A program made the position numbers and the translations under genes. Below, one piece after another: positions 2,450 through 64,000 of a stretch of DNA of 64,000 bases; positions within the stretch are counted from its first letter, which is position 1, and the number at the start of each line of letters is the position of its first letter. Source of the stretch: Cenococcum geophilum 1.58 (Eukaryota; Ascomycota; Dothideomycetes; Gloniales; Gloniaceae); the NCBI GenBank assembly GCA_001692895.1, contig KV748201.1:620001-684000 (forward strand), given 5' to 3'. A model generated the notes under the pieces. That model saw nothing but the letters and a program-made list of their open reading frames with translations, was not told the origin of the DNA and did no database searches.

Positions 2450-2899
2450 GTATCTTTCTATATAACCTACTACCTATATAATATCTTAAGTACACATCCC
2501 TAAAATAAGGCCTAAAGTCCTTTTTATAAACGCAATATTTATAGCTATACTTTTTATATAGAGTATATAGCGGATTACGCAGTTTACTAAAGCTACTCTT
2601 AATATTCTAGACGTATATTAATATCCGCTAGCGACTTTCCTTTATATTCTCCCAAATACTAGCTTTTAGAGTGTACTCTTCACTCGCTAACAGCACTTAG
2701 ATAGGAAGGCGTTTATTTATATTTATGGTACTATAGATATTATAAGGGCTGTGGAGATTATAAGAGTCTACGTTATTAAGATCTTTATCTTACCACTGTC
2801 TAAAATTCGCTATTTAAAGAAACCTTATAAATAATATTTAGGTTACTATAAAAGGTAAATTAACAGATAAAATATAGTATAACTAATATATACAATTTA

Positions 2900-3181
2900 A
2901 TGGCTATCTTAAGCTTTGGATTTATATTAGCAGCCTTTTTAGCCTACTTTTTAAGAAAAGAAGATAAATAAGCCTTATTAAGCCTCCTTTTAGAAGTATT
3001 AGGCGGTAGTAGTTGCAGAGAGGCGGACGGCGAAGTGGTTTATAGTAAAGATATAGGTAACGGAAAGGCAGGCAGCGAAAAGGTACGCAGGTTTTTAGTG
3101 GATTTCGCTTTATCTATATTTTTATTATCTACTAAAATCTATAAAGAGTGCTTTAGTATATATTTTCTAAAATTATATTAG
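2900..3181 (+). pseudogene. R1 small ORF, copy a (unknown protein, one in-frame stop)
   Basis: Starts ATGGCTATCTTA and aligns along its length with the 97-codon ORF at 51267-51560. It has a hydrophobic N-terminus (ILAAFLAYFLRKEDK), a small acidic/lysine-rich middle, and the C-terminal words FSIYFLK. One TAA replaces the arginine codon CGA after KEDK. Length differences between copies are multiples of three, which argues that the frame was once coding. I do not recognise the family. Confidence 0.5.
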
Positions 3182-3209
3182 CTACAGATATAATTTAGTA
3201 TTAGAAAGC

Positions 3210-3395
3210 TTACTCTTTAGGTAAAGATCCTAAAGGATTAATATAAGAAAGAGCGTCCTTAAAAGCGTCCTTAATTATTTTATCGTTAACGCCGCGTATA
3301 TTAAGTTCCTTAATTAAATGGCTGTTAAATATATTTAGAGGTGTAAATAAAGGCGTTATAGATAGTAGTATGCTAATAAACAGTAGATAAAACAA
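3210..3395 (-). CDS. R1 convergent small ORF, copy a (unknown protein, 61 aa)
   Basis: Open on the minus strand with a hydrophobic start (MFYLLFISILLSITPLFTPL) and the conserved words KELNIRGVNDKIIKDAFKDA and NPLGSLPKE. A close homologue is at 53488-53685 and a diverged one at about 51594-51780. It runs tail to tail with the plus-strand R1 ORF, 28 bp apart. The N-terminus could be a signal peptide or membrane segment. Function unknown; it may be one exon of a longer gene. Confidence 0.4.
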   Translation of the reverse strand: MFYLLFISILLSITPLFTPLNIFNSHLIKELNIRGVNDKIIKDAFKDALSYINPLGSLPKE

Positions 3396-3643
3396 TAATG
3401 GTAAAGTTTATAGTACGGTGCTATAAGGTAGAAGGTTGGTAGAAGAAAGTAAATATCCGCAATGCTAATTTTATTAAATTAGCTCGCTAATAAATAATCG
3501 CTGCTATAACTTACCTTAGTAAATATTAACCACCTTATATACGCTTATTTATAACGCGCAAATTCTTTATAGTTAAGTTACTACTAATTAAAGTAAGTAG
3601 GCGCCGTCTAGTTAACTTATAGAGTAATATTAATATAAAATCG

Positions 3644-10051: not shown

Positions 10052-10066
10052 TATATAGTATATATA

Positions 10067-11087
10067 GTAGTAGTTCTTTAATTAACGTCTGATACGGATC
10101 CTATCTTGGCCCACGCAGACTACTCCGTCATAGGGGGGAAAACTTGTAATTTACATGAAGAAAACCCTGCAGTTGGGGGAGGAAAAACCCTATAAGCAGC
10201 CTCAGTAGGATGAAAAACCCCGATTTGCCATGTTTGCACGTAGCAGCGGCCCTACGGGCCTACTGCACGTCCTCCTCCTTAGATGTTTTGAACTCCTTAG
10301 GAACCACTACTTCCTTCTCTAGCTTATTAAAGCTAGGGTTCACTACGTCCCAGCTAGGCCTTGCTAATCGATTGCTGTGTCTTATTGTCTCTTTATGTCC
10401 CATATCTTGCCCATCCCCTGTATGCTATCTCTTATGTAGACCACTGCCATATACGCCTTGCCTCCCCCCCCCTAGAGCCATCGAAGGCGTAAGGGGGATT
10501 CATCCATTCTAACTACCGTAATACTAATAAGCGAGCGGGATATTGTATTTGGGTATCTTTTGTGCCTAGGCCCCAGCTAGGCCCTCTCTAAGGGTCACTA
10601 CTCCGTCGAAAGGAGACAGGGAAAACCGTGGGTCGCAATCCAAGCTGCTAGGTAGTATTTGGTAGTTGAAAACGGCGAGTGACCGCATGCTCCGCGGGCG
10701 ACTGCCCTAGGGGTTAGGAGGGGCCGTATATTTGCTCGTTCGTTCGTTTAATAGCTCGTACACTCGTTTATCCGTCAATGTGAGGTCGTCGATGCTTTCC
10801 ATTGGGGGCTAGGGGATGCTTTTAAAAGCTGTTCATCCACGTTAGATTATATAGGTGCTTAGTAGGAGAACTAGTGGCTGTATTGTAAAGGGGTACCGTC
10901 AGTAGTGGTTTTCGAGATCTCACCATCCTATGTGAAAACTTTTCACTACGCCCCACGACGTATACAATCACCAGATCCTACTTGCACGCGCTGTGTAACG
11001 TCTCTGCGTTGGCTCTGGGTCTAAACTTCAAAGACCTAGGTTTGTAGCCGTCACCACGTACAGGTGCAGAATCCGTTTTCGACGGCC
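10067..11087 (-). mobile_element. SINE-like 1 kb element, copy A
   Basis: A 1021 bp element bounded by a 15 bp TSD, TATATAGTATATATA (10052-10066, 11088-11102), inside Gypsy A. Read on the minus strand it starts GGCCGTCGAAAACGG and ends in a CTACTAC tail. A second copy of nearly the same length lies at 55523-56541 with a different 15 bp TSD. Its last 55 bp match the LINE 3' end at about 9375-9425 (GGAGTAGTC, GCGTGGGCC, GGATCC, GACGTTAA). It keeps many CpA/TpG sites and is GC-balanced, unlike its surroundings. On the plus strand the frame at 10210-10512 is probably fortuitous. Confidence 0.8.
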
Positions 11088-32161: not shown

Positions 32162-32320
32162 CGTCTTAATTAAGGTGCTAGAGAAGGGTTATAAGTAGAT
32201 ATTAGGTTTACTTGGTAAGCGGATTTCTTACTTTTAAAGTATATAAATATGTCCTTTTATTTTCTCTTACTATAAGGCAGATCTAATATTAGCTAAGAGG
32301 CTTAAGGTATAGTAGCCTAA
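32162..32320. repeat. Repeat R1, copy a, right part
   Basis: Matches 53943-54100 (TTAATTAAGGTGCT, AAGGCAGATCT, TATAGTAGCCTAA). R1 similarity stops after TAGCCTAA. A 28 bp inverted repeat (about 32322-32349 against 32362-32389, TAAGAAATC ends) follows directly and may be the 3' terminal hairpin of the neighbouring Helitron. Confidence 0.7.
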
Positions 32321-46572: not shown

Positions 46573-46956
46573 GAATAAGGAGCTGGCTTTTCATGGATTA
46601 TAGCATTACATAGACTAAAGGCACTTCTTACTATAAAATACGATTCATTGAATCCAAATACCTGCATCCTAGAGGGTAGATTCTACTTTCTGCCGGGCAT
46701 ATTGTGACGCTTTCCAAGAAATCTTCACATAGGCTGATGCTAGAACAAACAAAATTCTAGATAATTCGAATATAATTTTACTTCTAAAGCAGGCGAAAAT
46801 ATAACCATATATCAAATGATGCCGAGGCTACCTTTTGCGAAAAGATTACTTTAGTGATGTGCACGACCAGCTTCTACAGCGAGCGCTATAAAATTTTAAT
46901 TCGGTACGCGCATCTAATCTCGCTTAATTGCCACCAACTATATATTATTTACCTCA
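46573..46956. other. Intergenic sequence downstream of the citrate synthase gene
   Basis: AT-rich but with normal CpA/TpG content, so not RIP-mutated. No ORF, RNA gene or repeat seen. Probably the 3' UTR and remaining single-copy flank of the gene. Confidence 0.6.
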
Positions 46957-47066
46957 GCAAGCTCAGACCATAGAATTAGTTAGCGGACATACGTATATCC
47001 GCGAGCGGATATCGCTAACCCTTTTTTGTTAAAAGGTTAATTCTATAGTCTAAGAGACTTTGCCAA
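46957..47066. repeat. Nested palindrome at the left end of the DUF6589 region
   Basis: Outer arms CTCAGACCATAGAATTA (46962-46978) and the near complement TTAATTCTATAGTCTAAGAG (47037-47056). Middle arms GTTAGCG (46979-46985) and CGCTAAC (47013-47019). Inner perfect ATATCCGC-GA-GCGGATAT (46995-47012). RIP-type composition starts about here, so this is the likely terminus of a mobile element. A further TAGCGGACG/CGTCCGCTA pair lies at 47315-47323 and 47346-47354. Confidence 0.7.
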
Positions 47067-47359
47067 CGTTTTCTTAAGCAATATAACTTATTTTATATAT
47101 AGAGCAGTTACCTTTTTTAACAAAATTAATCTATACCCCTACAACAGCTATTATCTTAGAAATACCATTAAATTAATCCGCAGAAGCAGCTCTATAATCA
47201 ATTAATATATCTACCCCATTAGCCCCCGGGATATTAAGTAATAAGCGCCGCCAAACGGGTAATATGTTAATAATTAAATTGCCCGCCCCCGCTATAAATA
47301 TAGTATTAGTTAACTAGCGGACGCCTACCTAAATGCTAACTAGACCGTCCGCTAAGCGG

Positions 47360-49930
47360 ATATTAAAGGAAGAGAAGATTAGAGTTATTTTAGAGCATTT
47401 ACGGGACTGGCATTAGACCTTTAATAACCTTTCTTTAGTATAGCTATAGCTTAGTGCTAATAAAAAATAAGGCGTAAAAAAAGATAAGGCGCAGAAAAGG
47501 AAGGCAAAAAAGAAGAAGGTAAAGGGGCTTATTGCTACCCTTCTAGGGGACAAAGAAATCTGTAATACAATTATAGAGACTACGGATATCTATTTAGAAC
47601 TAATTAGTACGGTTATAAATACTCTTTATAAAGAGCTTTGTAATCTTTAGCAAAAGACGGTTATTTTTAGTCCATAGAAGTTAGATCTAGAGTTTAAAGA
47701 CGTTTAACTCTTATAGGGCTATAAGGCAATTAGCTAATATGCCCCTCTACTCTACCAACTAATAGAAGAATTATTAGCATAATTAAAAACTAATAGATTA
47801 CGAAAACCGCACCTAGGGCGGATTATTCTTCTTATATCCATCCTTTTATTAGGCCGCGCTTAAAGCTCTACTAACTATTTTACTTAGCTTCTTAGTCTCT
47901 ATCTTTAAGGTATAGGTGTAAAGCATTAGGTTCTATTACTATTTTATGGACTAGGGCTTATTAATAAATATATAACGCTTAACTACTAAAAGATAGAATT
48001 AGCCAAACGCTTTAAGGAAGGTTATAATACTAGCGGCGGATATACTAGCGCTAACGTTATTAAAGACTTACCTCTAATTAATATCCGCTTTTAATAATAT
48101 CTATATTATATATAATAATTTTAACTACCTTAAGCGAACGCGATATTAGTTAATTAGAGACACTAGTATTTTCTATTTCTATACTACTAGAAAGCTTATC
48201 CGCGGATCCTATATTCCCCCTAGTAGCCTTCTTTAAAGTATACTATATAACCGGGTGTAACTTCGGATTAAGGATATTGCTAAGGCGCCAGGTAATATAT
48301 ATAATAGTGTTTAGAATCGGATATCTATATTTATAATTATAGATGCTTTACAAAGCGCATATCCGGCTACTGTAAATAGTATTTTTAAATCTAATACTAA
48401 GCTAGAATATCCGCGTATACTAGAGATTAATATTCTACTATCCGTAAAGACAACGTATATAAACCTAGGCCCTATTATAGAGAGCGAGGCTTCTATAAAT
48501 AGTAACTACCGTATACTTAAGACAATATTCCTAGAGCAACTATAACTTAATTATAATAACGATTTCTAAAACTAATTATATCTGGTATATAGTAACCAGA
48601 AAACCATAAAGCTTATCTATACCTATAAGCAAAAGTAGGTAGAGGCTGCGCTCTTATATAATAGCTACTATTAGGTACTACCTATTCTAGGTCTTTGGCA
48701 CCTTTAGTTAAACTTCCTATATATAATTATAAGGACTTTCTTTAGTGGTAAGCAATATGCGTAGTAGTACTCTACGCTCTATACTTATATAAATTACCTT
48801 AGGCGATAAAATATTTCTATAGAGCACTCTCCCTTCTACTATCTTAAAGAGCTAGTACTGCATAGTTTTAATACGCGTATTATTGCGCTCTTCTTAATAT
48901 ATATCTGCAATAGGCTTAACATCCATAAAGAAGGCGCGGTTAAAAGATATATTAGATCCTTAATACCCGAGCAGTTTCTATAGCATATTAAGGATATCCG
49001 CGCAGCGGGTTTTAGCTTTAAAGTTAGCCGTAAGGCTAATAAATTAGTTTCTCCGTAAACCTCCGCCTGTAGAGGTTCTTAAATTATAAATTAATTACTT
49101 ATAAAACCCAGCTCCACTACTATAAGCTAGCCCGCTTAGATTGTTAATATAGAGTTCTTTAATTATATTCGGTATTTATAGGTGGTTAAAATATATAAAG
49201 TGTTAAAATATGCTATTAAGTATGCGGATATCGGCCTTCTAAAGCGTATAATTGCCCGCCTTTACCTTTACTTTACCGGATTAAAGAGTAATAACTACGT
49301 ATCTAAAATAATGTACTTCTAGAGGTTAATTATAACAGAGGTGTATAATCTAGTACTTTAGCGGGCTATACTTGTGAACGGGTTAATTAATAATCGCGGA
49401 GAGCCGAATAGCTTTTTTAAAGCTAATTAACTTAATAAACTACTAAATCTTCAGCTAAAGGAGCTACTCTAATCACGCAGAAACTCAACCTTTAAAATAG
49501 ACTCTCTATTTAGGTAGAGTGTTCTTACTATAAGCTATACTAGACCTCTTTATGCTAAGTTTAAGGGCGCATTTAGTAAGTAGACGATATCTGATTATAT
49601 AATTAAGCCTCCTACGGTTAATATCTAGTCCCTTACGGATATAATTGCTAAGGACTTAATTATACGTTAGCGTGTACGGGATATTAGGTTTAAGGCACCT
49701 ACTATTCTTTAACTTAGATTAGAGCGGCTCTTATAGGGCGGCATTACTAATTTTAATATGCGGATATCTTATATTAGCGGTTTACTATACAACCCTTATA
49801 AGGACGGATTTAATAAGGCTATAGATAATATGCCGAAGGACTTTTAAATGCTTAGGCTTATAGTACGTTTCTATCTTAATATATTAAGCGAGTTCTTTTA
49901 TTAATATTAATTCTAACCAGCATATAATCT
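47360..49930 (+). pseudogene. DUF6589-family protein gene, RIP-degraded
   Basis: The first part is basic (KDKAQKRKAKKKKVKGLIAT). It is followed by GRIILLISILLLGRA and LLSLYLxGIGVKHxVLLLFYGLGLINKYITLN, the N-terminal pattern of DUF6589 proteins. Near 48540-48740 comes YLVYSNQKTIKLIYTYKQK and PILGLWHLxLNFLYIIIRT. Near 48900 comes LNIHKEGAVKRYIRSLIPEQ. Near 49370-49450 comes NGLINNRGEPNSFFKANxLN, matching the family's N-x-L-V-N-x-x-G-x-P-N-S pattern, then LLNLQLKELL. Assignment is from remembered family motifs, not a search. The role of DUF6589 is not established; in fungi it is frequent in repeats. Many TAG/TAA codons. Confidence 0.65.
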
Positions 49931-49986
49931 TCTTAGTACGTAGTATATAACGTAGCAGTTAGCTATTTTATAGTACGGATATATAA

Positions 49987-50058
49987 ATATCTTCATCTTA
50001 GCTTATACGGATATCTTTATCTTAGCTTATACGGATATCTTTACCTTAGCTTATACGG
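49987..50058. repeat. 24 bp repeat x3, first array
   Basis: Three units of ATATCTTTATCTTAGCTTAT plus ACGG, so each junction recreates CGGATAT. The array recurs at 51955-52026, 1968 bp downstream. Confidence 0.85.
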
Positions 50059-50214
50059 ATATTATAATATTAATTAAGTATATTTATTAAATTTAAGACG
50101 GAGACTTAATTCCTATATATATAGTAGCAAAAAGGTAAAAGCTACTATTTTATTATTATAAACCCGCAATAATAGCCAACCCATAGCAATAGCTAACTTA
50201 TATCTACTTATTTA

Positions 50215-50640
50215 ATATCTAGTAGCCCAGTATTATATATAAGTGTAGTAACACTACGCCTTAGGAACGCAAGCTTATCCTTTATCTTACTTAGAAAATC
50301 TCTAAACTTATTTAACCGGCGGTTTATAGCTTAAATATCTTTTACTATATTAGTCACCTATTTATAAACTATATTAATACACACAAAAACAGTGATTGCT
50401 AAATATACCCTAATAGATCCTATGCTAGCGAAAGCGGTAATAGTAATAGCAGCACCTAGCGTGCTAGTAATTAGTAAAAGAGTTAGAGGAGAAGCGGCAG
50501 AGTAGGTACCTCTACGGCCGCGCGTACTACTGTAAGTAGAAGTCTTAATAGGGGTAGAGGTCTTAGTAGGGGGGGGAGGCGTAGTAGCGTGGGCGGGGAT
50601 AGTATGAGAACGAAGCTATACGGATATTAGTAATATCCGT
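50215..50640 (-). pseudogene. Unknown coiled-coil-like protein, copy 1
   Basis: The minus strand reads a serine/proline/leucine-rich start, then ITAFASIGSIRVYLAITVFV. A helical segment follows: VTNIVKDIxAINRRLNKFRD and FLSKIKDKLAFLRRSVTTLI, then YNTGLLDI. The copy at 52190-52500 has most of the same residues (AIDRQLNKFGDSLSKIKDK, LTFLRRGVTALIRNARLLDI), a pattern that suggests past selection on a protein. Family not recognised. Confidence 0.45.
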
Positions 50641-51266
50641 ATTATTAACATAGGTACTATACCTTCTTAGTAGGCGTTTTAGCTAGATTATTAGTAGAAG
50701 TTAATTTTGCATATTTTCTACCCTAAGGTATAACTGGCTTAGGATTTAGTAAACCTTCCTATACGCGTGTTAGCTAATAGAATAATGGTATACTATTAGC
50801 ATATACCTTTCCATACAACCTGCCACCCACACAATATCTTAAGCATACACCCCTAAAATAAGGCCTAGAGTCCTTCTTATAAACGCGGCATTTATAGCTA
50901 TACTTCTTATATAGAGTATATAGCGGATTACACAGCTCACTAAAGCTACCCTTAATATTCTAGACGTATGTTAATATCCGCTAGCAACTTTCCTTTATAT
51001 TCTCCTAAACACTAGCTTTTAGAGTATACCATTTATTCACTAACGGCACTTAGATAGGAAGGCGCTTGTTTATACTTATAGTGCTACAAAGATTATAAGG
51101 GCTGTGGAGATTATAAGAGGATAAAGGAGGGCTTTTAGGAGAGTTAGCGTTATTAAAATTACTCTCTTTATCGTTATCTAGGGTCTCTAATATTTCTGTT
51201 AGGTTACTATAAGAGGTAAATTAGTAAACAAGACGTTAAGGCAGTATAACTAACATATACGATTTA

Positions 51267-51560
51267 ATGGCTATCTTAGCCTTTAGATTTGTATTAGCAG
51301 CCTTTTTAGCCTACTTTCTAAGAAAAGAAGATAAACGAGCCTTATTAAGCCTCCTTTTAGAAGTATTAGGTAGCAGCAATAGAGAGGTAGATAGCGAAGA
51401 AGCGGATAGCGAAGAGGCTAATAGCAAAGATATAGGCAACGGAAAGATAGGCAGCAAAAAGGTGCGCGGATTTTTAGCAGATTTTACTTTATCCGTATTT
51501 TTATTATCTACTAAATCCTATAAAGAGCGCTTTAGTATATATTTTCTAAAATCACATTAG
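51267..51560 (+). CDS. R1 small ORF, copy b (unknown protein, 97 aa, open)
   Basis: The best preserved of three copies (others 2900-3181 and about 53182-53468). Hydrophobic N-terminus (ILAFRFVLAAFLAYFLRKED), a leucine-rich segment, an SEEADSEEANSKD-type acidic repeat, then GFLADFTLSVFLLSTKSYKE and FSIYFLKSH. Copy c expands a VGSKEVGGKE-type repeat in the same place. Indels between copies are in multiples of three. Upstream there is no recognisable promoter. It might be a signal-anchored small protein or an exon; function unknown. Confidence 0.5.
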   Translation: MAILAFRFVLAAFLAYFLRKEDKRALLSLLLEVLGSSNREVDSEEADSEEANSKDIGNGKIGSKKVRGFLADFTLSVFLLSTKSYKERFSIYFLKSH

Positions 51561-51593
51561 CTATAGGCATAATTTAGTATTAGAAAGCTTACT

Positions 51594-51780
51594 CTTTAGG
51601 AATAGAGTCTAAAGGCTTAATAAGAGTAGCTATAGCGTGCTTAACAGCATCCTTATTCATTTCGCGCATATTAAGTTCCTTAACTGCCTCGCTGCTGTTG
51701 CTTATATTAATATCATTTATAGGCGTAAATAAAGGCATCGTAGATAGTAGAATGCTAGGAGACAGTAGATAAAATAATAA
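51594..51780 (-). pseudogene. R1 convergent small ORF, copy b
   Basis: Minus strand reads FYLLSPSILLSTMPLFTPIN, VKELNMREMNKDAVKHAIAT and KPLDSIPKE, diverged from the copies at 3210-3395 and 53488-53685 but with the same layout. Start codon unclear. Confidence 0.4.
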
Positions 51781-52189
51781 TAATAAAGTTTACGGTACGG
51801 TGCTGTAAGGTAAAAAGTTAGTAGAGGAAGAAGATATGCAGAGGTTAATTTAAGGTAAATATCCAATCTGCAAATTTTATTAAAACAGCGCACTAACAAA
51901 TAATCGCTGCTATAGTAACTTACCTTAGTAAACATCAGCGGTGTAGATATATAAATATCTTTATCTTAGCTTATGCAGATATCTTTATCCTAGCTTATAC
52001 GGATATCTTTATTCTAGCTTATACAGATATTATAATATTAATTAAGTATATCTATTAAATATAAGGCAGAGACTTAATTTATACATAATAGCAGAGAGGT
52101 AAAAACTACTATTTTATTGCTTTAAACCCGTAATAATAGCTAACCCGCAGTAATAGCTAACCTATATCTACTTAAATTCTATATCTAGT

Positions 52190-52500
52190 AACCTAGCGTT
52201 ACGTATAAGCGCAGTAACACCACGCCTTAGGAACGTAAGCTTATCCTTTATCTTACTTAGAGAATCTCCAAACTTATTTAACTGGCGGTCTATAGCTTAA
52301 ATATTTTTCGCTATATTAGTTACCTGTTTACCAACTATATTAACGCGCGTGGAAATAGTAATTACTAAATATATCCTAACAGATTTTGTGCGAGTAGAAG
52401 TACTAGAAGCAGCACTAGACGTGCTAGGAATTAATAAAAGAGTAGAAGTCTTTAAGGGAGGGGAGGTCTCTAGAGGGGGGATAGTGCGGGTATAAAGCTA
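52190..52500 (-). pseudogene. Unknown coiled-coil-like protein, copy 2
   Basis: Minus strand reads VNIVGKQVTNIAKNI, AIDRQLNKFGDSLSKIKDK, LTFLRRGVTALIRNARLLDI. Fewer stops than copy 1 in this part. Same position relative to the 24 bp array and R1 as copy 1. Confidence 0.45.
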
Positions 52501-53181
52501 TACGGATATCAGCAGTATCCGTATTATTAAAATGCGGATATTATACCTTACTAGGTGTTTCAGCCAGATTACTAGCAGAAGCTAATTACGTATGTTTTTA
52601 GCGCTAAGGTATAACCGGCTCTGGTTTTAGCAAACTATCCTATATACGTATTAGCTAATAGAATAATAGTATACTATTAACATATATAGTATATACCTTT
52701 TCGCATAACCTACTACCTAAGCGATATCTTAAGCATATACCTCTAAAATAAGGTCTAGAGTCCTACTTATAAACGCAATATTTATAGTCTTACTTAATAT
52801 ATAGAGCGTATAGCAGATCGCGCAGTATACTAGAGCTACCCTTAATATTCTAGACGTAGGTATATATCCGCTAGTAAGCTTCCTTTATATTCTCCTAAGC
52901 ACTAGCTTTTAGGGTATACCATTTATTTACTAACAGCACTTAAATAGGAAGGCGCTTATTTATATTAATATTAGACATTATAGCTTAGGCCGTCTACGTA
53001 CTATAGAGCTTATAAGGGCTATAGAGATTATAAGAGAATAGAGGAGGGCTTTTAGGAGAGTCGGCGTTATTAAGATTGCTCTCTTTATCATCATCTAAAA
53101 TCTCCAACATTTCTATTAGGTTACTATAAGAGGTAAATTAATAGACAAGATACTAAAATAGTATAATTAACATATACGATT

Positions 53182-53468
53182 TAAAGGCTATCTTATACTA
53201 AACATTTTGCGTAGCAATTCTATTAGCCTACCTCTTAAGAGAAGTAGAAGTATAACGATAATTAAACTTTTTAGAAGTAGTAGGCGGCGAAGAGGTAGGT
53301 GGTAAAGAGGTAGGCAGTAAAGAAGTAGGCGGTAAAGAAGTAGGTAGTAAAGAGCTAGGCAGTAAACAGGTAAGCGGATTTCCAGCGGATTTCGTAATAG
53401 CCTTATTATAGTACTCTACTAGATCTAACAAAGAGTGTTTTAGTATATATTTCCTAAAATTATATTAG
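53182..53468 (+). pseudogene. R1 small ORF, copy c (start codon lost)
   Basis: ATG of copy b reads AAG here. Retains AILLAYLLREVE, an expanded EEVGGKEVGSKEVGGKEVGS repeat, FPADFVIALL and FSIYFLKLY. The minus-strand frame at 53228-53431 is a proline/serine shadow of the repeat. Confidence 0.4.
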
Positions 53469-53487
53469 CTATAGGCATAATTTAGTA

Positions 53488-53685
53488 TTAGAAAGCTAAC
53501 TCTTTAGACAAAAACCCTAAAGGATTAGTGAAAGAAAGGGCGTCCTTAAAAGCGTCCTTAATTATTTTATTATTAACGTCGCGTATATTAAGTTCCTTAA
53601 CTAAATAACTATTAAACGTGTTTAGAGGTATAAAAAAAGGCATTATAGATAGTAGTATGCTAATAGACAGTAGACGAAATAACAA
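53488..53685 (-). CDS. R1 convergent small ORF, copy c (65 aa, open)
   Basis: MLFRLLSISILLSIMPFFIP, then LVKELNIRDVNNKIIKDAFK and NPLGFLSKE. About three quarters of the residues match the 3210-3395 copy by eye. Hydrophobic N-terminus. Function unknown. Confidence 0.4.
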   Translation of the reverse strand: MLFRLLSISILLSIMPFFIPLNTFNSYLVKELNIRDVNNKIIKDAFKDALSFTNPLGFLSKELAF

Positions 53686-54105
53686 TAATAAAGTTTGCGG
53701 TATAATGCTATAAAGTAAAAGGTGCGGAGGTTAATTAAAGGTAAATATCCGCGCTGCCAATTTTATTAAATTAGCTTACTAATAAGTAATTGCTATAGTA
53801 ACTTACCTTAGTAAATATTAACCACCTTATAAACGCTTATTTGTAACGCGCAAATCCTTTATAGTTAAGTTACTACTAATTAAGGTTAGTGGGCGCCGTC
53901 TAGTTAACTTACAAAGTAATATTAATATAGAATTACCGCCTAATTAAGGTGCTAAAGAAGGGTTATAAGCGGATATTAGGTTCACTTAGTAAGCGGATTT
54001 TTTACTTTTAAAGTGCGCAAATACATTCTTTTATTTTCTCTTACTATAAGGCAGATCTGCTATTAGCTAAGAATCTTAAGGTATAGTAGCCTAAGAAGAA
54101 CGGAT

Positions 54106-55507
54106 GTTATCTAGTTATAAGGATTGTAAGACACTTAAACTAAATGGCTAATATAATATAGGTTCTATAGGTTTTAGGAGCTTTAGGTATAAACCTTAGT
54201 ATCTCTCTAAATAAGACTCTAATGGACTATTTAAATACGTATACGGAGATTAACACTTAACACCCAGACATTAATTAGAGCTCTACCCTAGTCCTAGTTA
54301 AGTTAATAAATAAGTGAAATGCTAAGGAATATTAAATACTAACCTACTAAAGCTGCGTTATATTTAAAACCAAGGGTAGAGATTAAGCACTAGGCTGTAG
54401 GTTTTAAGCTACACTTAGTTTAGAGAGCGGAGATTAAATATTAGACTATAAATTCTAGGCTATACCTAATTTAGAAGGCGGGGATTAAGTATTAGTATAT
54501 AAACTCTAAACTGCGCCTAGTTTAGAGGGCGGAGATTAAGTATTAGCCTATAAACCCTAAGCCTTAGAGTTTCCTAAAAGCGGAGATCTGGTACTATATT
54601 ATAAATTATAAATTTCCAGATTTTATACCACCTAGGAACTAGTACTATACTACAGATTTTAAACTTTAGAATTTTTTATAATTAGAGATCCGGTGCTATA
54701 TTACGAATATTAAACCTTAGGTTTATTTAAAAGTTAAGACTTAGTATTGCACTATAAGCTCTAATACTCAGACTACCCTAAAGATTTAGATTTAATGCTC
54801 CACTATAAGTTTTAATATCTAGATTACTCTAAGGGCTAAGACCTAATATTACGCTATAAGCTCTAATATCCAGATTATTCTAAGGGTTAAGATATAGAGC
54901 TACCTTATAAGCTATAATACCTAGCCTACCCTAGAGACTAGTTTCTAATGCTATAGTATAGACTTAGATATCCTAGAGCTATAGGGAGTTAATATCTATT
55001 ATTATAATATAGACCCTAATATCCGAGAGGCCGATACTTAATACCGGATAATAGACGCTGATTATTACCCTAGGGCTGTTAATACCCAGCCTAATTTTAA
55101 GATCCTAGATATCCGTTATGGGGTTTTAGTATACTTAGCCTAAAGGTATTCTGCTAGCTAGAGTTTAGGCTAGCCAGCTACGCATTCCTACTAGACGTAG
55201 GCTAAAAAGGTAATAGTATCAGCAGCCCTACATGCGGATTTTCGGTAGATATTGATTAAGGTAGCTAGGCTACTTATATTTACGGACTTTAAGCTACCAA
55301 TACTATACGCCTCTCCGCTACCCTAGACTATGGTAATATCCACTCTACGCTATCTTTTAATTTGCTTACTAATACTAATAGCTAGCTCTCTACCTAATTT
55401 ACCTTTTCTACCTCCTTTTAAATAAAGGTAATAAACTTATTTAGATTATTACTAAGCTAACCATAATCCTAATTAGGTAGGTTTTTCTTAAGTGCCTTAT
55501 AACTAGT
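54106..55507. other. RIP-degraded spacer between R1c and SINE-like B
   Basis: Apart from the 51 bp array I see no recognisable gene. Short pyrimidine/purine-biased repeats dominate. It may be internal sequence of the same large element, as it lies between the DUF6589 and RecQ remnants. Confidence 0.4.
54376..54630. repeat. 51 bp tandem repeat, five units
   Basis: Units start with GCGGAGATTAAGTATTAG-like words at 54376, 54427, 54478, 54529 and 54580, exactly 51 bp apart. Consensus continues with TATAAACCCTAAGC and TTTAGAGG. 51 is a multiple of three, but both strands carry stops. Related, more degenerate repeats (CTATAAGCTCTAATATCC) extend to about 55000. Confidence 0.8.
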
Positions 55508-55522
55508 TATATACTAGGCGCA

Positions 55523-56541
55523 AGCCGTCGAAATCGGACTCTGCACCTGTACGTGGTGATGGCTACGAACCTAGTCTTCGAAGTTCAGATCTAGAGCCAA
55601 CGCAGAGACGTCGTATAGCGTGCGGATAGGACCTATGGTGGTTATAGGCGTTAAGGGCGGTAGTGAAAAATTTTCAGATGGTGAGATCTTAAAAACCACT
55701 ACTGTTGGCTCTCTACAGTACGACGACTACTACATTCTCCTATCCAGGGCACCTATACGATCCAACATGAATGCACAGTATTCGATATCACCCCCCGTCC
55801 CCCAGTGGAAAGCATCGATAACCTTATATTAACGAATAGGTAAACGCGAACAAACGAATAAACGAGCAAATATACGGCCCCTCCTAACCCCTAGGGCGAT
55901 CGCCCGCGGAGCATGCGGTTACTCGCCGTACTGCTATAATACTACTGAAAGCGGTAGCTGGATAACCCCGTACGGTTTTCCTTGTCTCCTCTTAACGGAG
56001 TAGTGCCCTTAGAGAGGGCCTAGTGACTAGGGCCTAGGCATAAAAGATACCCAGATATACACACACACACATCCCGCTTTTATCTTTTAGTTTTAGGATA
56101 GTAGATCGGATGAATCCCCCTTACGCCTTCAATAGGCCTTAGGGGGGGGGGAGGCATGGCGTATATGGTAATGGTTAACAAGAGATAGCATACAGGGGTA
56201 GTTAGGATATAGGGCACAACTATAAGCATATAGCAATCGATCGGTAAGGCCTAGCTAGGACGTAGTGAACCCTAGCTTTAGATAAGCTAGAGAAGGAAGC
56301 AGTGGTTCCTAAGGAGTTTGAAACATCCAAGGAGGAGGACAAGCTGTAGGCCCGCAGGGCCGCTGCTTGTACAGGCATGGCAATTCGGGGTTTTTCATCC
56401 TACTAAAGTGGCTCATAGGGTTTTTCCTCCCCCCAATAGCAAGGGGTTTTTCCTATTAATATTACTTTCCCCTTGTGTACGGAGTAGTCTGCGTGAGCCT
56501 AGATAGGATCCGTATTAGACGTTAATTAAAGAATCTACTAC
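55523..56541 (+). mobile_element. SINE-like 1 kb element, copy B
   Basis: 1019 bp, bounded by the 15 bp TSD TATATACTAGGCGCA (55508-55522, 56542-56556). Begins AGCCGTCGAAATCGG, ends in CTACTAC. Inverted relative to copy A (10067-11087) and nearly the same length. A (CA)n run near 56055-56070 is intact, so RIP has not acted. Only the last 55 bp or so match the LINE. Two short open frames (55620-55832, 56318-56506) are not conserved in copy A. No clear tRNA or 5S head was recognised, and 1 kb is long for a SINE. Confidence 0.8.
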
Positions 56542-56579
56542 TATATACTAGGCGCAGCTATAAAGAGCGGTAATTTACT

Positions 56580-58430
56580 TATTAGATATAACATAGCTTA
56601 AGGTTAAATTCTAAACAGTATGCTAATATTTCTTCTCCATCTAGTTACAGAATTAGTTTTTTATACTTACGGTAAAGGCCTTTTATTACATCTTCCTTAG
56701 AATCCCCTCTATATACGGCTTACGGATATTAAACTCTTTAAAAGCCTGTAAAGTAGGATTATAGTTAAAGCAATAACCCTAGCCACTAGTGGACGGAGAC
56801 TGCTCCTTATAGTTCTCTAATATAATTTTTTATAAGTAGCCCTTTTCCTTATTTATAAGAGCATATATATAATAGGAGAGAGCTGCTCTTTTCTTAGCTT
56901 TAGTCTTTTAGCGCCGCGCTAGCTTCTTTAGTAGAATATCCGTAGGTAGAACTACGGATATTCCACCTAGACTAAGCTCTCATCCTATATTAGATACGGA
57001 CGTATTAGAATTAGTATTACTATATATAGACACTCTTAAAGATATATTGCTAGCAAAATTAGTAGCCCCGTCCTCTTATAACACCTATCACTTAATATAA
57101 TATTCGCGGCTAAGTTAACTTAGCTAAGATTGGAAGGCTCTACTAGTATAACCACAATTTTTAGCTAGCCTAGTAATATCCTTACGCGGACCTTTATACT
57201 AATCCTTAATTAGAAATATCGCCTTACCTTTTTAACTACTACTATAAGTACCGCGTCTAAGTCATTGCTATATTATATTAATAGACTTATCTCTATATAT
57301 GCAATACTACGCAATATAGTTAAAATTAGGAATATTAGTACTATAAGTAAGCGCGTTAGAGGAGAGCAGAATATAGATTTTAGAGTTAGGCTTTCTTAAC
57401 TCCTTATATAGTCTATCTTTATCCGTAATAGCTAATAATGTATAATAAAGCTAAATAGTTTTTCTAGCCTATACTTCCTAGTACCTATAATATACCAACC
57501 ATAAATAAATTATATCCCTCCCTAGTAATATTAGGTCCTTTAAATTAAGGAAGATAATTATCTTTAGAATCTAGTAAGGAGTTAGCGTATATTAAATTTC
57601 CTACTTAGCGGATATAGCGGTATACGCGCGGTCTATAATAAAGTATAAGCTCTTAAAAAACTTCTTACTTCCTTACTTAACGTATTCTTTAATAATTAAT
57701 AGATCTAGCTAGTTAATTGATATCCGTATTATATTAATATTATTTTAAAAGCCTACTAACTCTTTAATAATCTTAAATATTATATTATTAAGCGTTGCAG
57801 TATAAGTAAACTAAAGCTTCCGCCCTAATAACGACTATACTTTCTATAGCTGTGTATACGAACTCTAAAATAAACCCCCCTAATTAGCTATAAGGTGTAC
57901 CTTATTAATTACTACTAAGCCAATATATATATAAAAGGCAGGGTTAGTAAGAGTTTTATAGAACCTTTTACTAACTAATAGCTCTAGCGATATTAAAATA
58001 TAGGTGTATACTCTAATACGGATTTCCTATAAAAGACGTGTGGATATTATCTCGGCGTATATATAAACCGGCCTTATTTTAGAAAGCTCCTTAATCTTTA
58101 CCTTCTACTCTATACTAATTACATTAAGTAATAAAATAATAATTACTACTAAGGCCTAAAGAAGATATAGTATTACTTATATTATTATACTTTTGCTAAA
58201 TAAGGTTCTTATAATAAGTATTATATCTTTTTTCTTAAATAGCAGCTACCTAAGGGCTTTAAGCTGCTCCGTATGTCCATAATACGGATATAAAAAAGTA
58301 ATAGCCTTATTAAGCTTACTTAGCTACTAGGCCTTACTCTCTCTATAAAGTATAAGAAGCTAATCTTAAAGGTCCTATAGCCGTTGTTTCTAATCTATTC
58401 TATAACTCCTATAAATTTAATTATCTAATA
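56580..58430 (-). pseudogene. RecQ-type DNA helicase gene, RIP-degraded
   Basis: Minus strand, right to left. Walker A region near 58220-58180 reads IIRTLFSKSIII (GKS with G to S), then ALVVIIILLLNVISIE (motif Ia). Near 57930-57860: VVINKVHLIANxGG, where D and E of the DEVH box have become N and K. Near 57370-57300: ILLSSNALTYSTNIPNFNYI. Near 57290-57240: INIIxQxLRRGTYSS (arginine-finger motif VI). Near 57220-57190: KGPRKDITRLAKNC, start of the post-helicase region, with several cysteine-containing words. The layout matches fungal RecQ-like helicases, including telomere-linked ones. It would unwind DNA 3' to 5'. Dead here. The DUF6589 gene nearby is in the opposite orientation. Confidence 0.75.
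56934..56963. repeat. Perfect palindrome GAATATCCGTAG/CTACGGATATTC
   Basis: 12 bp arms (56934-56945, 56952-56963), 6 bp loop GTAGAA. Contains the CGGATAT word that recurs across 46995-58290. Confidence 0.85.
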
Positions 58431-58597
58431 CTTAATACGGCCACGGCTGTTCTAGCACCTTATTTAACTTCCTCCCTCTCTACCTAGTGGGTTTTAGTGC
58501 TGGCATACGGTAGATTTACCTAGATATCTATAACTTAGTAGTAGGCGTAAGATAAGGTTTTAGTAGGTGTTTTACACTATAATATAGACGCTATATA

Positions 58598-58824
58598 TGT
58601 TACGGCACTGGCAGAACTTGGCAGAACTACGCACCGGCAAGTTGCTACAGATTGCCGCATATTGCGGTCACGTGACGCGAAGATCGTATATAGCTTCGAG
58701 CGGCGCTCCCCTTCTTCTCCTTTCCTTTCTTTAGCTTTAGATTCTCGTTTATAGACAATCCAATCGTACAGGCTTGCGCGACTATTTTGCCGTACTTATG
58801 TCTCGATTAACTAAGTCGCTAACA
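58598..58824 (+). repeat. Gypsy G 5' LTR, 227 bp
   Basis: Begins TGTTACGGCACTGGCAGAAC and ends GTCGCTAACA, both with intact TG/CA. TCACGTGA is intact at 58668-58675. The region between 58630 and 58665 differs from C and E (GCAAGTTGCTACAGATTGCC). Confidence 0.88.
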
Positions 58825-59037
58825 TTATCTAAAGCTTACTCTACTCTTTCTTCCTAAGAAGGAACTTAAATATATCTATGAGAACATAGAATAGGACCCT
58901 AAGGACATTACTAGGACCACAAGGATAGGACCTAAAAGAAAAGAACAGAACCCTAAGGAAAGGACCTATAAGACACATATAGACTAGAACCCCTGAAGAA
59001 ATTACCCGGAATTACCTAATACCCCTACCACTATACC

Positions 59038-60150
59038 ATGAACTACAGTAGTAGGTAAAGCAGCTGCAGGACCCTTAAATACTTTAGACGAAGAAACAAT
59101 TAACGTTTCAACCCCCTAGGCGGAGCTTGCGGCTGCTAATACCGAAATTAAACAATTGCGAGAGCTGCTTGAAGCCAGAGATACCCCTATATCTAATAAT
59201 GAGTCATTATTAGACAACTAAAGACTTACTATAGTCCTTTAGGCCCTATCCTAGCGCCTTAGTGGATCTACTAAGGCCTATGTAGTACCAAAGCGGTTAG
59301 CAAAGGTTGCGGACCCCCTACTACTTACAGACGGAACCGACCCTATATTTAATAATTGGAAGCTCTAATTATGGGATAAGCTTAAAGTTAATGTAGATTA
59401 CTTCCCTAACGCCCGAGCCAGAATGGCCTATGTCTTCGGCCGTACTAGCGGAGACGCCTAGACGCATTTACGCCCATAATATACTAAAGACTTAGTAGAC
59501 CCCTTTATTTCTAAAGAAGAAATAATTAAATACTTATTTTTTATTTATAAGGACCCTTTTAAAGTATAGAACGCCCGCCTTAGCTATAAAAGCCTAAATA
59601 TAAAAATAACGGAGACCTTTTTGGCCTTTTAAACCCGCTTTCTATACCTGGCCGGATAGGCCTAGATCCCCTAGGAAGACCTACTACCAAACCTCTTTAA
59701 TAAGCTTACCCTGGACCTACAGCGGGCCGTATTGCTAGCTTATACTACGGTATAGACGTTAAAGGAACTTACGGACTATTGCCTAGCTATTAACTAAGGC
59801 CTCTATTAAATTAAGGCACGCGCTAACTGGCTAAAAACTAGAAACATTGTAAACCAGGCCGTAAGTACTATAAGTACGGCCTATAGTGCCCTGGCACAAT
59901 TAGTAACTCCTATAGCTAACCTAGCAGCTAGCCGCGTAGCTACCCCTACTATGGGCCTAGTGTACACCCGGCCTATATATAGCGACCCCCGTATATAGGC
60001 CCTTAGCGATTAAGGAGCTTGCTTCTTGTGTGGTTAAATAGGCTACTCTATAAGGAACTGCCCGATAAAGGTAAGAATAAATAAGGTCTTATTAATTTAG
60101 GAGGATAGTATAGAGCCGGAAAAAGAGGAACCCTAAAGGAAGACTCCTCT
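59038..60150 (+). pseudogene. Gypsy G Gag
   Basis: ATG at 59038, with a small deletion shifting the frame within the first codons compared with Gypsy C. Then AAGPLNTLDEETINVSTP, a short helical region (ANTEIKQLRELLEARDTPIS), a capsid-like part (NARARMAYVFGRTSGDA, FPxxDLLPNLFNKLTL-like words) and a CCHC knuckle near 60020-60065 reading CFLCGxIGYSIRNC, where only the histidine has become tyrosine. Confidence 0.8.
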
Positions 60151-60159
60151 CTAGGGTTA

Positions 60160-63100
60160 AAAGGGATTAATATATTATATATCGATCTAGGTTAGCTAGT
60201 TGGTAGAAGAAGCTGCATTATCCCTTATACTTTATTTTGTAATAGATATTAAGTTTTAACTTCTACTTTAGCTAACTTAGGAGTAAATGCCTTTACCTTA
60301 ATTAATATAAAGTGCGCTGTAAAACTGGCTGACTTTTTAAATACACCCCTTAAAGAACTGCCCAAACTAATCCCTATTTGCGGTTATAACGGACGGATAG
60401 GGCCACCTATTATAACTATCTTGTGGATTTACCTCTACGTTAATAGACAAAGGTAGTATAATATCCCCTTTCTTATTACGGACTTAGGAAGCCATAATAT
60501 AATCTTAGGAAGAAAATGGCTAGCCTATTTAGGCTTGCAGCTTAAAGTACGGAGTAGACGGCTTATTTGGCCCAAAACTCTACCCCTAACCCCTTCCTTT
60601 ATAAAAGAAATTAGTATTATAATAGAAAACCTTATACGGCCCTAGATTAATACTATTTACTAGGCCGATGCTATACGCAGAGACTAGGCCTTTAAGAAGG
60701 ACGTATAGCTTAACCCGCAATGGATCCGTATACTACGCCGCCCCTAGACTACCTATATTACGCTACCCGCACTAAAGACCTAGGAAGTTAGTAGTGACCT
60801 AGCTAAGTTCCCTATAGAGAACCCTATAAAGCCATAAAGGAAAGCTAGGGATATTGGACGCTATACTAAACTAATAGATAGGAAGAATAACTTATGGAAA
60901 ATGGAATATAAGCTAAGGAAGACTATAAACCCTATACTGTAAACTACGGCCTAACGGACGCTAAAGAAACCTATAGACCTCCTACCAGTTAATGTCTGCT
61001 ACATTAGCGCTGTAGGATTCTACTAGAACCTAGTTTAGCCTAATACCGTTGCCTTTACGACTAGCCTATACGAAATTGACTAAATAATTAAGGAAAAGGA
61101 AAGCGAGCTTAGCGGATAGGAAAGCGGGCTTATAGATAAAGAACTAGTAGAGTAAAAACTGCCCGATTAATACCGGAAATTTAAAGACGTATTCTCTAAG
61201 GCAGCGTCTAATATGCTTTTACCCTACTAACTATATAATTATAAAATTGAGATCGAGCAAGATAAGGGAAGCACCCTTAGCTTTAGCCCTCTCTACCTAT
61301 AGTTTATTGCCGAATTATAGGCCATAAAGTAGTACCTTATTGATAACCTAAATAAGGGCTTTATTGAGCCTAGCTAAGCCCCTTTTAACTTACCTATTCT
61401 TTTTATTAAAAAGCTAAATAGAGGACTACGCTTCTGTATTAACTACCGTAAGCTAAATAATATGACCCATAAGGACCGCTACCCGCTACCCTTACTTAAT
61501 GAGACTCTTACCTAAATAAGTAGAGCTAAGGTTTTTATAAAGCTTAATATCCGCCAGGCTTTTTACTAAATTAGAATAGACCCTAGGTCTAAGGATCTTA
61601 TTATATTCTAGACCTGTTACGGGACGTATAAATATAAGGTACTTCCTTTTGGACTAATTAATGGACTAGCTATATACCAGCGGTATATAAACGATATACT
61701 CTTTAACTACTTTAACGACTTCTATACGGCCTATTTAGATAATATTATAATCTATTTAGAGAATAAACTAGAATATGAGGAGCATGTCTATAAAGTCCTA
61801 TAACGGCTCTATAAAGCTGGCCTCTAGGCTAATATTAAGAAGTTGGAATTTAGTATTAAGCGTATAAAGTACTTAGGTTTTATTATTAGTATAGACGGAA
61901 TTAAGGCCGACCTAGAGAAAACGACCGCAATTAACTAGTAGACGCCCCCTTGGACCGTAAAGGGGGTGTAATTGTTTTTAGGTTTCTGTAACTTCTACTA
62001 ACGCTTTATTAAGAACTACAGCAAGATTACCCGGCCTCTTAACCGCCTTACTAGGAAAGACTAGCCCTTTTACTTTAACGCTATATATATGTAGGCCTTT
62101 AATAAGCTTAAAAAACGGCTAGTGTTGGCCCCCCTACTTGCCTACTTTAACTTAAAATGGCCCTTAATGCTAGAAACTAATGCCTTAAACGGCGTAATAG
62201 CTAGTGTTTTTTCCTAGAAGTAACTAGATGGAGAATAGTACCCTATTATATACTATTTAAAGATTATAATAGATGCTAAACTAAACTACCATATCTATAA
62301 TAAAGAAATGCTGGCTATTATCTCTAGCTTTTAGCACTAGCGTGTATAGCTAGAGGGGACCCCTAAACCTATTAAAGTAGTGTTAGATTATAAGGCCCTA
62401 GAATACTTTATAACAACTAAGGCCCTTATGGCCCGGTAGGCACGCTAGGCGGATATCCTATCTTAGTTTAACTTCTTAATTATATATAGACCAGGCGCTG
62501 CGAATTGTGTAGATACTCTTACTAGGCGCGAATAAGACCTAGGTAACTATATAGCTGCGAAGATCTTATTATAGACCTAGACGCTACTACAACTAGAGCA
62601 CCTTAACCCCTGGATATAGGCAGAACTAAGTATAGACCCCTTAGGCGCTAAGATGTATCCTATTAACCCTTTAGGACTTAACTTAATTAATAAATTGCTG
62701 TAGATAAACCGTACGGCCCCTTCTCTACAGGAGTACCGTAAAAAGGCAAAGAACGTTACTAGCTCATAGTCCCTCGAAAATGGATTACTTAAGCATTAGG
62801 AACGGCTGGTAGTGGTAGAGGAATAGAACTTATAAACTTAGCTTATTGCTAAAGCATATACCTAGGTCTCTATAGCCCACCCTAAAAAGAATAAGATCCG
62901 TAGGATTATTGGCGACCGCTACTACTGGCCTGGAATAGTTATAGATATCGACCGCTATGTACGGAACTGCAACAACTGCTATAGGTCTATAATTCTATAA
63001 GATAAAACCCTAGGACTATTAAAACCCCTCTTAATACCTAACCGCCCCTGGTAATATATCTCTATAGACTTTTATAAGCTACCTCTAGACTGTAACGGAT

Positions 63101-64000
63101 ATGATATGGTTATAATTCTAGTTAACCGCTTCGGCAAGCGCCCGTTTTTAATTCCCTATTATAAAAATATTAATACTAAAGAGGTAGCCCGACTGTATAT
63201 CTACTACGTCTACTAAATTTATAGATTACTAGACACTATTATATCTAACCGCGGGCCGTAGTTTATATTAGCCTTTTGGAATAAGTTTACCCAGATCTTA
63301 AGTATTAAGCTAAAGCTTTTTACGGCGTATTACCCCTAGATAGACGGTTAAACGGAGATTGTAAATTAATACTTAAACTAGAGACTCTGGCCTTTTATTA
63401 ACTACTTCTAAGATAACTGGGCTAAACTATTGCCCTTAATAGACTACGCCTAAGCAACCCTACCCTATAACTCTACCGGATTTACCCTTATTTAACTAGA
63501 AATAGGTTACCTACCCCGTATAAGCTTTAACTAGGAAAGACTAAAAGGGCCCTAAACTATACGCGAAAAACTATCTTATAAGAAAGCCTAGTAGTACGCT
63601 AAGCGCTTAGAAGAAGCCTAGAAAGTAGCCTATATAAACCTAAAAAAGGCCTAGAAATTAATAAAATAGTAGGTAAATAAGCATAGGCGCGAGCCTAACT
63701 TTACTATAGGCGATATAGTTTAGGTTATAATAAAGAACTAGAAGATAGAATGGCCTAGCCGTAAGCTAGACTATAAGATAGTAGGACTATATAAGATTCT
63801 TAATAAAGTAGGCAACTTATATAAGGTTAAGCTCCTAGACTTAATTAAAGTCTACCCTATTTTCTTACTGGATAAGCTATAGAAAGCTATAAATAACCTA
63901 CTACCTAGATAAAAGAATAAACCTTCTCTGCTAATTTAAGTTAACGATAATAATAAATAGGAAATTAAAGAAATACTGGCCTGTAAACTTGTAAAGGGAA
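60160..64000 (+). pseudogene. Gypsy G pol with chromodomain start (partial)
   Basis: Protease is at about 60260-60560 (LANLGVNAFTLINIKCAVKL, HNIILGRKWLAYLG). RT is at about 61255-61900 ([45 protein letters not shown]; one catalytic D is N). RNase H is at about 62150-62540 (LETNALNGVIASVF, YRPGAANCVDTLTRR). Integrase is at about 62880-63500 (IRRIIGDRYYWPGIV, CNNCYRS, SIDFYKLPLD, SNRGPxFIL). GPF-like and chromodomain parts are at about 63740-64000. Scattered stops. The polyprotein is cut by the window end. Confidence 0.85.

Follow-up and report, generated by a model that had tools for sequence, protein, structure and literature searches.

A two-gene DUF6589–RecQ DNA transposon of Cenococcum geophilum with an 8-bp word repeated along its whole length

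AcademH DNA transposons reportedly go back to Kojima in 2020. They carry a transposase and a helicase, produce target-site duplications (TSDs) of 9 or 10 bp (PMC10045372; this and the other papers are cited from excerpts) and have been reported from fungi (PMC10799480). KolobokH elements, found only in fungi, combine a DDD/E transposase with a RecQ helicase (PMC9587614). On VANDAL transposons of Arabidopsis, the motif of VANC21 is mainly non-coding and often lies in tandem repeats (PMC5735166). Here we describe a DNA transposon of the fungus Cenococcum geophilum 1.58 that contains a gene of the Pfam family DUF6589 and a convergent RecQ helicase gene, and over which an 8-bp word, GCGGATAT, is repeated. 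One damaged copy begins at position 46949 of a stretch of 64,000 nucleotides, called the window below (C26:620001-684000, contig KV748201.1; other contigs are likewise given as C plus a number), in the 177.2-Mb genome. An earlier note on this stretch went too far in stating that no element with this gene set had been described, since the helicase-bearing AcademH and KolobokH are published (PMC10045372, PMC9587614).

The nearest described kind is AcademH, which agrees in helicase, fungal host and length of the TSD. The 9-bp TSD of the present elements fits the AcademH range, and a helicase gene (DEAD and Helicase_C domains, RecQ relatives in PDB) lies beside the transposase gene. Unlike AcademH as described in the excerpts, these elements have GCGGATAT over their whole length and a duplicated Zn-cluster-like gene. 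KolobokH shares the RecQ helicase, but it does not fit: Kolobok duplicates TTAA, whereas the TSDs here are 9 bp and varied in sequence, and the C/DxxH signature was not common to the DUF6589 sequences (of 10 aligned, at most one had it in any column). Telomere-linked fungal RecQ helicase genes are also multi-copy; most copies here, however, lie inside contigs, and those at contig ends are near-identical, have TSDs and lack telomere repeats in the pieces examined. For Starships, which use a DUF3435 tyrosine recombinase, the inverted ends and 9-bp TSDs found here speak for another mechanism. In the literature searched, the one match that combined several of these features, by its listing, was on Tc1/mariner elements.

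DUF6589 and the convergent RecQ gene form one DNA transposon, as the earlier note had proposed, because other copies have both terminal repeats, TSDs and convergent pairing. Two lineage A relatives of the window copy (C75:754919-765805 and C4:351495-362381) were 96.8% identical over 10,887 bp and terminated together in TTACCT(C/T)AGCAAGCTCAGAC; the whole lineage A element is ~10.9 kb. Lineage B is shorter (~6.4 kb), has ends TTG(A/T)CTCAGCATGCTCAGACC and a left-end hairpin with inverted arms of 24 nt that are 96% complementary. A 9-bp TSD fitted 11/11 insertions with both ends in hand. It was exact in eight (C4a A, C75 A, C4b inner C-type, C4b outer B, C5, C6, C43/C88 and C149/C70) and differed by one transition in C28, two in C75 B and three in the window copy. 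Lineage B pieces ending eight contigs were 99.95–99.98% identical to the C9 piece, their flanks differed, and the open frames encoded a DUF6589 protein of 939 amino acids and a RecQ protein of 854. DUF6589–RecQ elements are recently mobile, with open frames. A subtelomeric element, considered for the lineage B pieces at contig ends, was ruled out by the differing flanks, by TSDs shared between halves (C43/C88, C149 tail/C70) and by the absence of TTAGGG runs of at least three units from the stretches examined; the C41 half had no partner among five right ends compared.

Pairing of the two genes was examined by genome searches, in which 102 of 274 candidates were scored with DUF6589 and 66 of 443, 53 of 424 and 63 of 415 with three RecQ queries. 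Within 20 kb, 78 of the 102 DUF6589 loci had a convergent RecQ gene, 24 had none, and no locus had one in the other orientation only; within 30 kb, these numbers were 85, 16 and 1. Of 152 RecQ loci, 78 were paired within 20 kb, three had DUF6589 in the other orientation only and 71 were without it. By the time of the third RecQ search, 51 gaps had been measured: 30 of 593–754 bp (lineage B type), one of 1.9 kb, 16 of 5.8–7.8 kb (A and C types, in which an accessory unit separates the genes) and four of 12–19 kb.

The RecQ-like gene that the earlier note saw on the minus strand matches only weakly in the window copy (E = 0.09 for Helicase_C, short of the cut-off; E = 4.6e-4 for the WRN helicase in PDB), and its Walker A and DEVH motifs are destroyed. 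A copy with fewer mutations matches plainly (DEAD 1.8e-12, Helicase_C 5.9e-13; PDB matches WRN, RecQ and BLM). Both domains, together with GKS (Walker A), DEVH and QRxGR (motif VI), were found in the A and B proteins; RecQ_Zn_bind matches stayed below cut-off (E = 5.3e-4 in A, 0.11 in B).

The plus-strand gene was correctly recognised as DUF6589-like: with stops read as X, its frame matched the family (PF20231.3, E = 3.7e-34; domain 48315-49577), and the C75 relative matched at E = 1.2e-70. One of two structure models of the protein had a P-element-like fold, with P element and hAT as the best structural matches. P element and hAT have 8-bp TSDs; the elements here differ from them by the 9-bp TSD, the lack of C/DxxH and the presence of a RecQ gene. 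For the second model, of a shorter homologue, no transposase was among the matches listed, perhaps because this model starts at the first catalytic strand, and Foldseek of DUF6589 against PDB gave no significant match. A database search with the lineage B protein matched two proteins only, and the term DUF6589 was not found in the literature searched. Judged from the first model, DUF6589 is probably a DDE transposase; a Pfam family of hitherto undefined function thus gains a probable transposase role, tied to a RecQ gene.

The new part of the finding is the repetition of GCGGATAT. CGGATAT, whose recurrence the earlier note had rightly picked out, was counted 34 times within 46957-58590, where an order-2 Markov model on both strands predicts 2.9 (7.4 by order 3), and ranked first among the 400 commonest 7-mers. 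Elsewhere in the window, the 47 kb left of this interval had nine copies and the 5.4 kb right of it three. The 8-bp word GCGGATAT was present 30 times in the C75 copy of lineage A (10.9 kb), 28 times in the C4 copy and 26 times in 6.4 kb of lineage B (24 in a contig piece of 5,735 bp and 2 in another of 708 bp), while only ~0.5–1.2 were expected (order-2 Markov; both A copies and the larger B piece). Mutated lineage B copies contained 23, 23 and 16. Sites recurred about once per 250–360 bp across both genes and spacers; the word is spread over the entire element and is not the subterminal site that had been suggested. The background, taken over window and flanks (104 kb together), was eight (0.77 per 10 kb). 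A pooled set contained 56 copies of GCGGATAT and no single-base variant above 13, although some variants exceeded their own expectation (GCGGAGAT 13, GCGGATTT 10, GCTGATAT 10).

Four coding sequences, including the 614-amino-acid open part of the A DUF6589 gene, contained 11, 8, 5 and 7 copies of GCGGATAT, against means of 1.16, 1.25, 0.48 and 0.57 after synonymous-codon shuffling, and the observed count was reached by 0/1000 shuffles in each. A fifth, short open reading frame (ORF) had one site, which 25/1000 shuffles reached. The enrichment exceeds chance and protein-coding demands. Between A and B, whose proteins were 52% and 47% identical, five coding CGGATAT positions were common, of 18 in A and 22 in B (14 and 17 alignable). 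Since so few are common, many sites arose at unshared places.

We examined 23 DUF6589 fragments. Score decided the choice of 19, from loci at which the first search had shown no RecQ; the other four were picked for their lack of RecQ, once the word had proved absent from the first three such fragments. GCGGATAT was present in 16/16 fragments of lineages B and C, with RecQ within 20 kb in 15 and at 27 kb in one. It was absent from 7/7 fragments without RecQ within 30 kb (of the 17 loci without convergent RecQ at that distance), one of which had a single CGGATAT. These seven had ~22–32% protein identity to representatives of A, B and C. Because word-bearing and RecQ-less groups differ in ancestry, the association of word and RecQ is a clade-level link. 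Nothing clear emerged as an alternative dispersed word in 8.2 kb of RecQ-less fragments, and their top words may reflect shared ancestry. Among the literature matches listed for GCGGATAT or its reverse, none was on transposons by its title.

The reading that we favour, with a probability of roughly 0.6, is an AcademH-type two-gene transposon with DUF6589 as the DDE transposase and a helicase–transposase complex reading GCGGATAT along the element. The binding sites of the transposase would be the ~20-bp ends together with the inverted CTCAGACC words of subterminal hairpins; it would cut, and insert the element with a 9-bp stagger (cut-and-paste). In excision or repair, RecQ would serve to unwind the DNA, either at the ends or over the length of the element. 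Via GCGGATAT, the whole element would be recognised as self by a protein that it encodes, the likeliest being the helicase or its complex with the transposase, and would thereby be processed or be kept open against silencing. A bolder proposal, which we put forward tentatively and at less than even odds, is that GCGGATAT may be a DNA address code, selected densely over the element, including its coding DNA against synonymous freedom, and read by the element's own RecQ–transposase machinery to separate self from host. Sister lineages would retain the code although its positions turn over, and RecQ-less DUF6589 lineages would lack it. If GCGGATAT is a recognition code, this would be an unusual eukaryotic transposon, with coding DNA constrained over its full length by a protein-binding word, and element self-recognition or escape from silencing would become testable through recoding. 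By analogy, VANC/VANDAL is the nearest functional parallel: there too the element acts on itself through a short word in which it is enriched and which is rare outside it. GCGGATAT differs in that it also fills coding DNA, mostly at places that sister lineages do not share.

A 1.9-kb unit lies in tandem in lineage A, and the duplicated small ORFs seen by the earlier note belong to it. The small protein encoded there gave 13 database matches. The cysteine spacing CxxCx6Cx14CxxCx6C was kept in most of 11 aligned accessory proteins and lost in some, and a Zn_clus match was below cut-off (E = 0.013). The annotated model P0025 appears, on our reading, to have a basic linker and a coiled-coil-like tail; its DivIVA match was weak and below cut-off (E = 0.015). 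At C4b, a stretch 88% identical to the accessory unit of lineage A adjoined a DUF6589 gene 67% identical to that of A. Reading of the lineage B pieces turned up none of the small ORFs, and RecQ accompanies each of the lineages A, B and C. The accessory part is thus the small ORFs, and not RecQ, to which the earlier note had given that place.

Zn2Cys6 proteins commonly bind CGG, and with its cysteine spacing the small Zn-cluster-like protein could be, in A and C, an element-encoded factor recruited by GCGGATAT against methylation or heterochromatin, so that the word would serve as an anti-silencing tag like that of VANC on VANDAL. The heavy mutation of the window by repeat-induced point mutation (RIP) is in keeping with this, as is the fact that VANC21 binds a short motif in which the element that encodes it is enriched (PMC5735166). 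We consider it rather doubtful, however: VANC21 motifs are mainly non-coding and often tandem according to the same excerpt, whereas GCGGATAT fills coding DNA; the small gene is missing from the pieces read of lineage B, the near-identical ones; its Zn_clus match did not reach the cut-off; and many copies were RIP-mutated despite the word. It is distinctly unlikely that GCGGATAT is the binding site of a host regulator, repeated merely to raise expression. Inverted pairs do exist (start-to-start distances 3, 11, 12, 21 and 30), but 26–45 sites per element, on both strands and through both genes, would be unusual for promoters, and the host DNA examined had only the low background density given above.

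The word has neither CpA nor TpG and might therefore outlast RIP and only appear enriched; mutated copies of lineage B had kept it (12/23, 15/24, 20/24 and 20/24) slightly more often than comparable words (36, 55, 63 and 66%). An equal density in a copy without RIP signature (the B piece at C41, GC 48%, 24 sites in 5.7 kb), whose top-ranked 7-mers were mostly overlaps of GCGGATAT, makes this very improbable and contradicts RIP composition as the source of the word. RecQ genes are reported from fungal subtelomeres, and a DUF6589 repeat might lie beside such a RecQ repeat by accident. This is hardly credible, being contradicted by the shared ends, TSDs and convergent order; moreover, no TTAGGG run of at least three units was found in 15 stretches examined.

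The window contains one RIP-inactivated lineage A copy of this two-gene transposon, with the following features.

46949–46968, +: left terminal inverted repeat; 20-bp repeat at both ends of the C75 and C4 lineage A copies, one base differing in one end
46962–47054: subterminal hairpin; arms 46962–46978 and 47038–47054, 17 nt, 88% complementary
47196–49900 (approximate limits, transferred from the C75 copy), +: DUF6589 gene, RIP-degenerate
49978–51945, −: accessory unit, copy 1; small protein with CxxCx6C...CxxCx6C encoded where the unit is less mutated
51946–53830, −: accessory unit, copy 2; 79% identical to copy 1
53900–58506 (3' part with approximate limits), −: RIP-degenerate RecQ helicase gene, interrupted by the insertion at 55527–56541
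55527–56541: insertion of another repeat, ~1 kb, not in the C75 copy; 79% identical copy at window 10063–11086
58598–64000, +: Gypsy-type long terminal repeat (LTR) retrotransposon, entered upstream of the RecQ start; carries the domains RVT_1, RNase H and integrase zinc-binding
46995–58291, both strands: 34 CGGATAT sites, 15 with the full word GCGGATAT

Of the palindromic end placed at 46957-47066, the hairpin arms were recovered, and the true left end lies at 46949; the outer CTCAGACC word of the hairpin reappears inverted ~75 bp further in. Two CGGATAT palindromes described as perfect have perfect arms around a centre of 1–2 bases. Position 58590, taken for the end of the element, is the entry point of the LTR retrotransposon (TG at ~58598). 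The retrotransposon sits between the right end of the window copy and the rest of the element; its LTRs are 97% identical, it has an ATATA duplication, and its second LTR ends at ~64577, past the window. The real right terminal repeat corresponds to window coordinate 64978-64997, and the element ends 997 bases outside the window. RIP signature covered 47001-59000 (TpA/ApT 1.5–1.8, composite index 0.83–1.40 in 12 one-kb bins), where the list of ORFs had none of at least 100 amino acids. The published C. geophilum genome was graded 'Probably' for RIP (PMC5445492).

Other sequences were observed in the window. The repeat pair 55527-56541/10063-11086 is GC-richer, ~1 kb, and also adjoins a lineage B copy on C70. 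A fragment at 2483-3642 resembles the lineage A accessory unit (~71% identical to that of the C75 copy), and a 116-bp lineage A-like piece lies at 32173-32288 (81% identical). An open frame at 45374-45997 matches the citrate synthase C-terminal domain (Pfam E = 7.4e-44); it adjoins the element, in a stretch without RIP signature.

Some further arrangements were seen at other copies. Target sites three bases apart in the lineage B left hairpin were hit by an A element (C75:754919) and a C element (C4b, near 3997.6 kb), making this hairpin a possible insertion hot spot. At C28:1644001-1654000, a lineage B copy is followed by an inverted partial second copy, the right ends lying face to face. A recent lineage B copy at C70:1-10000 has a short internal deletion in its right terminal repeat and an intact 9-bp TSD.

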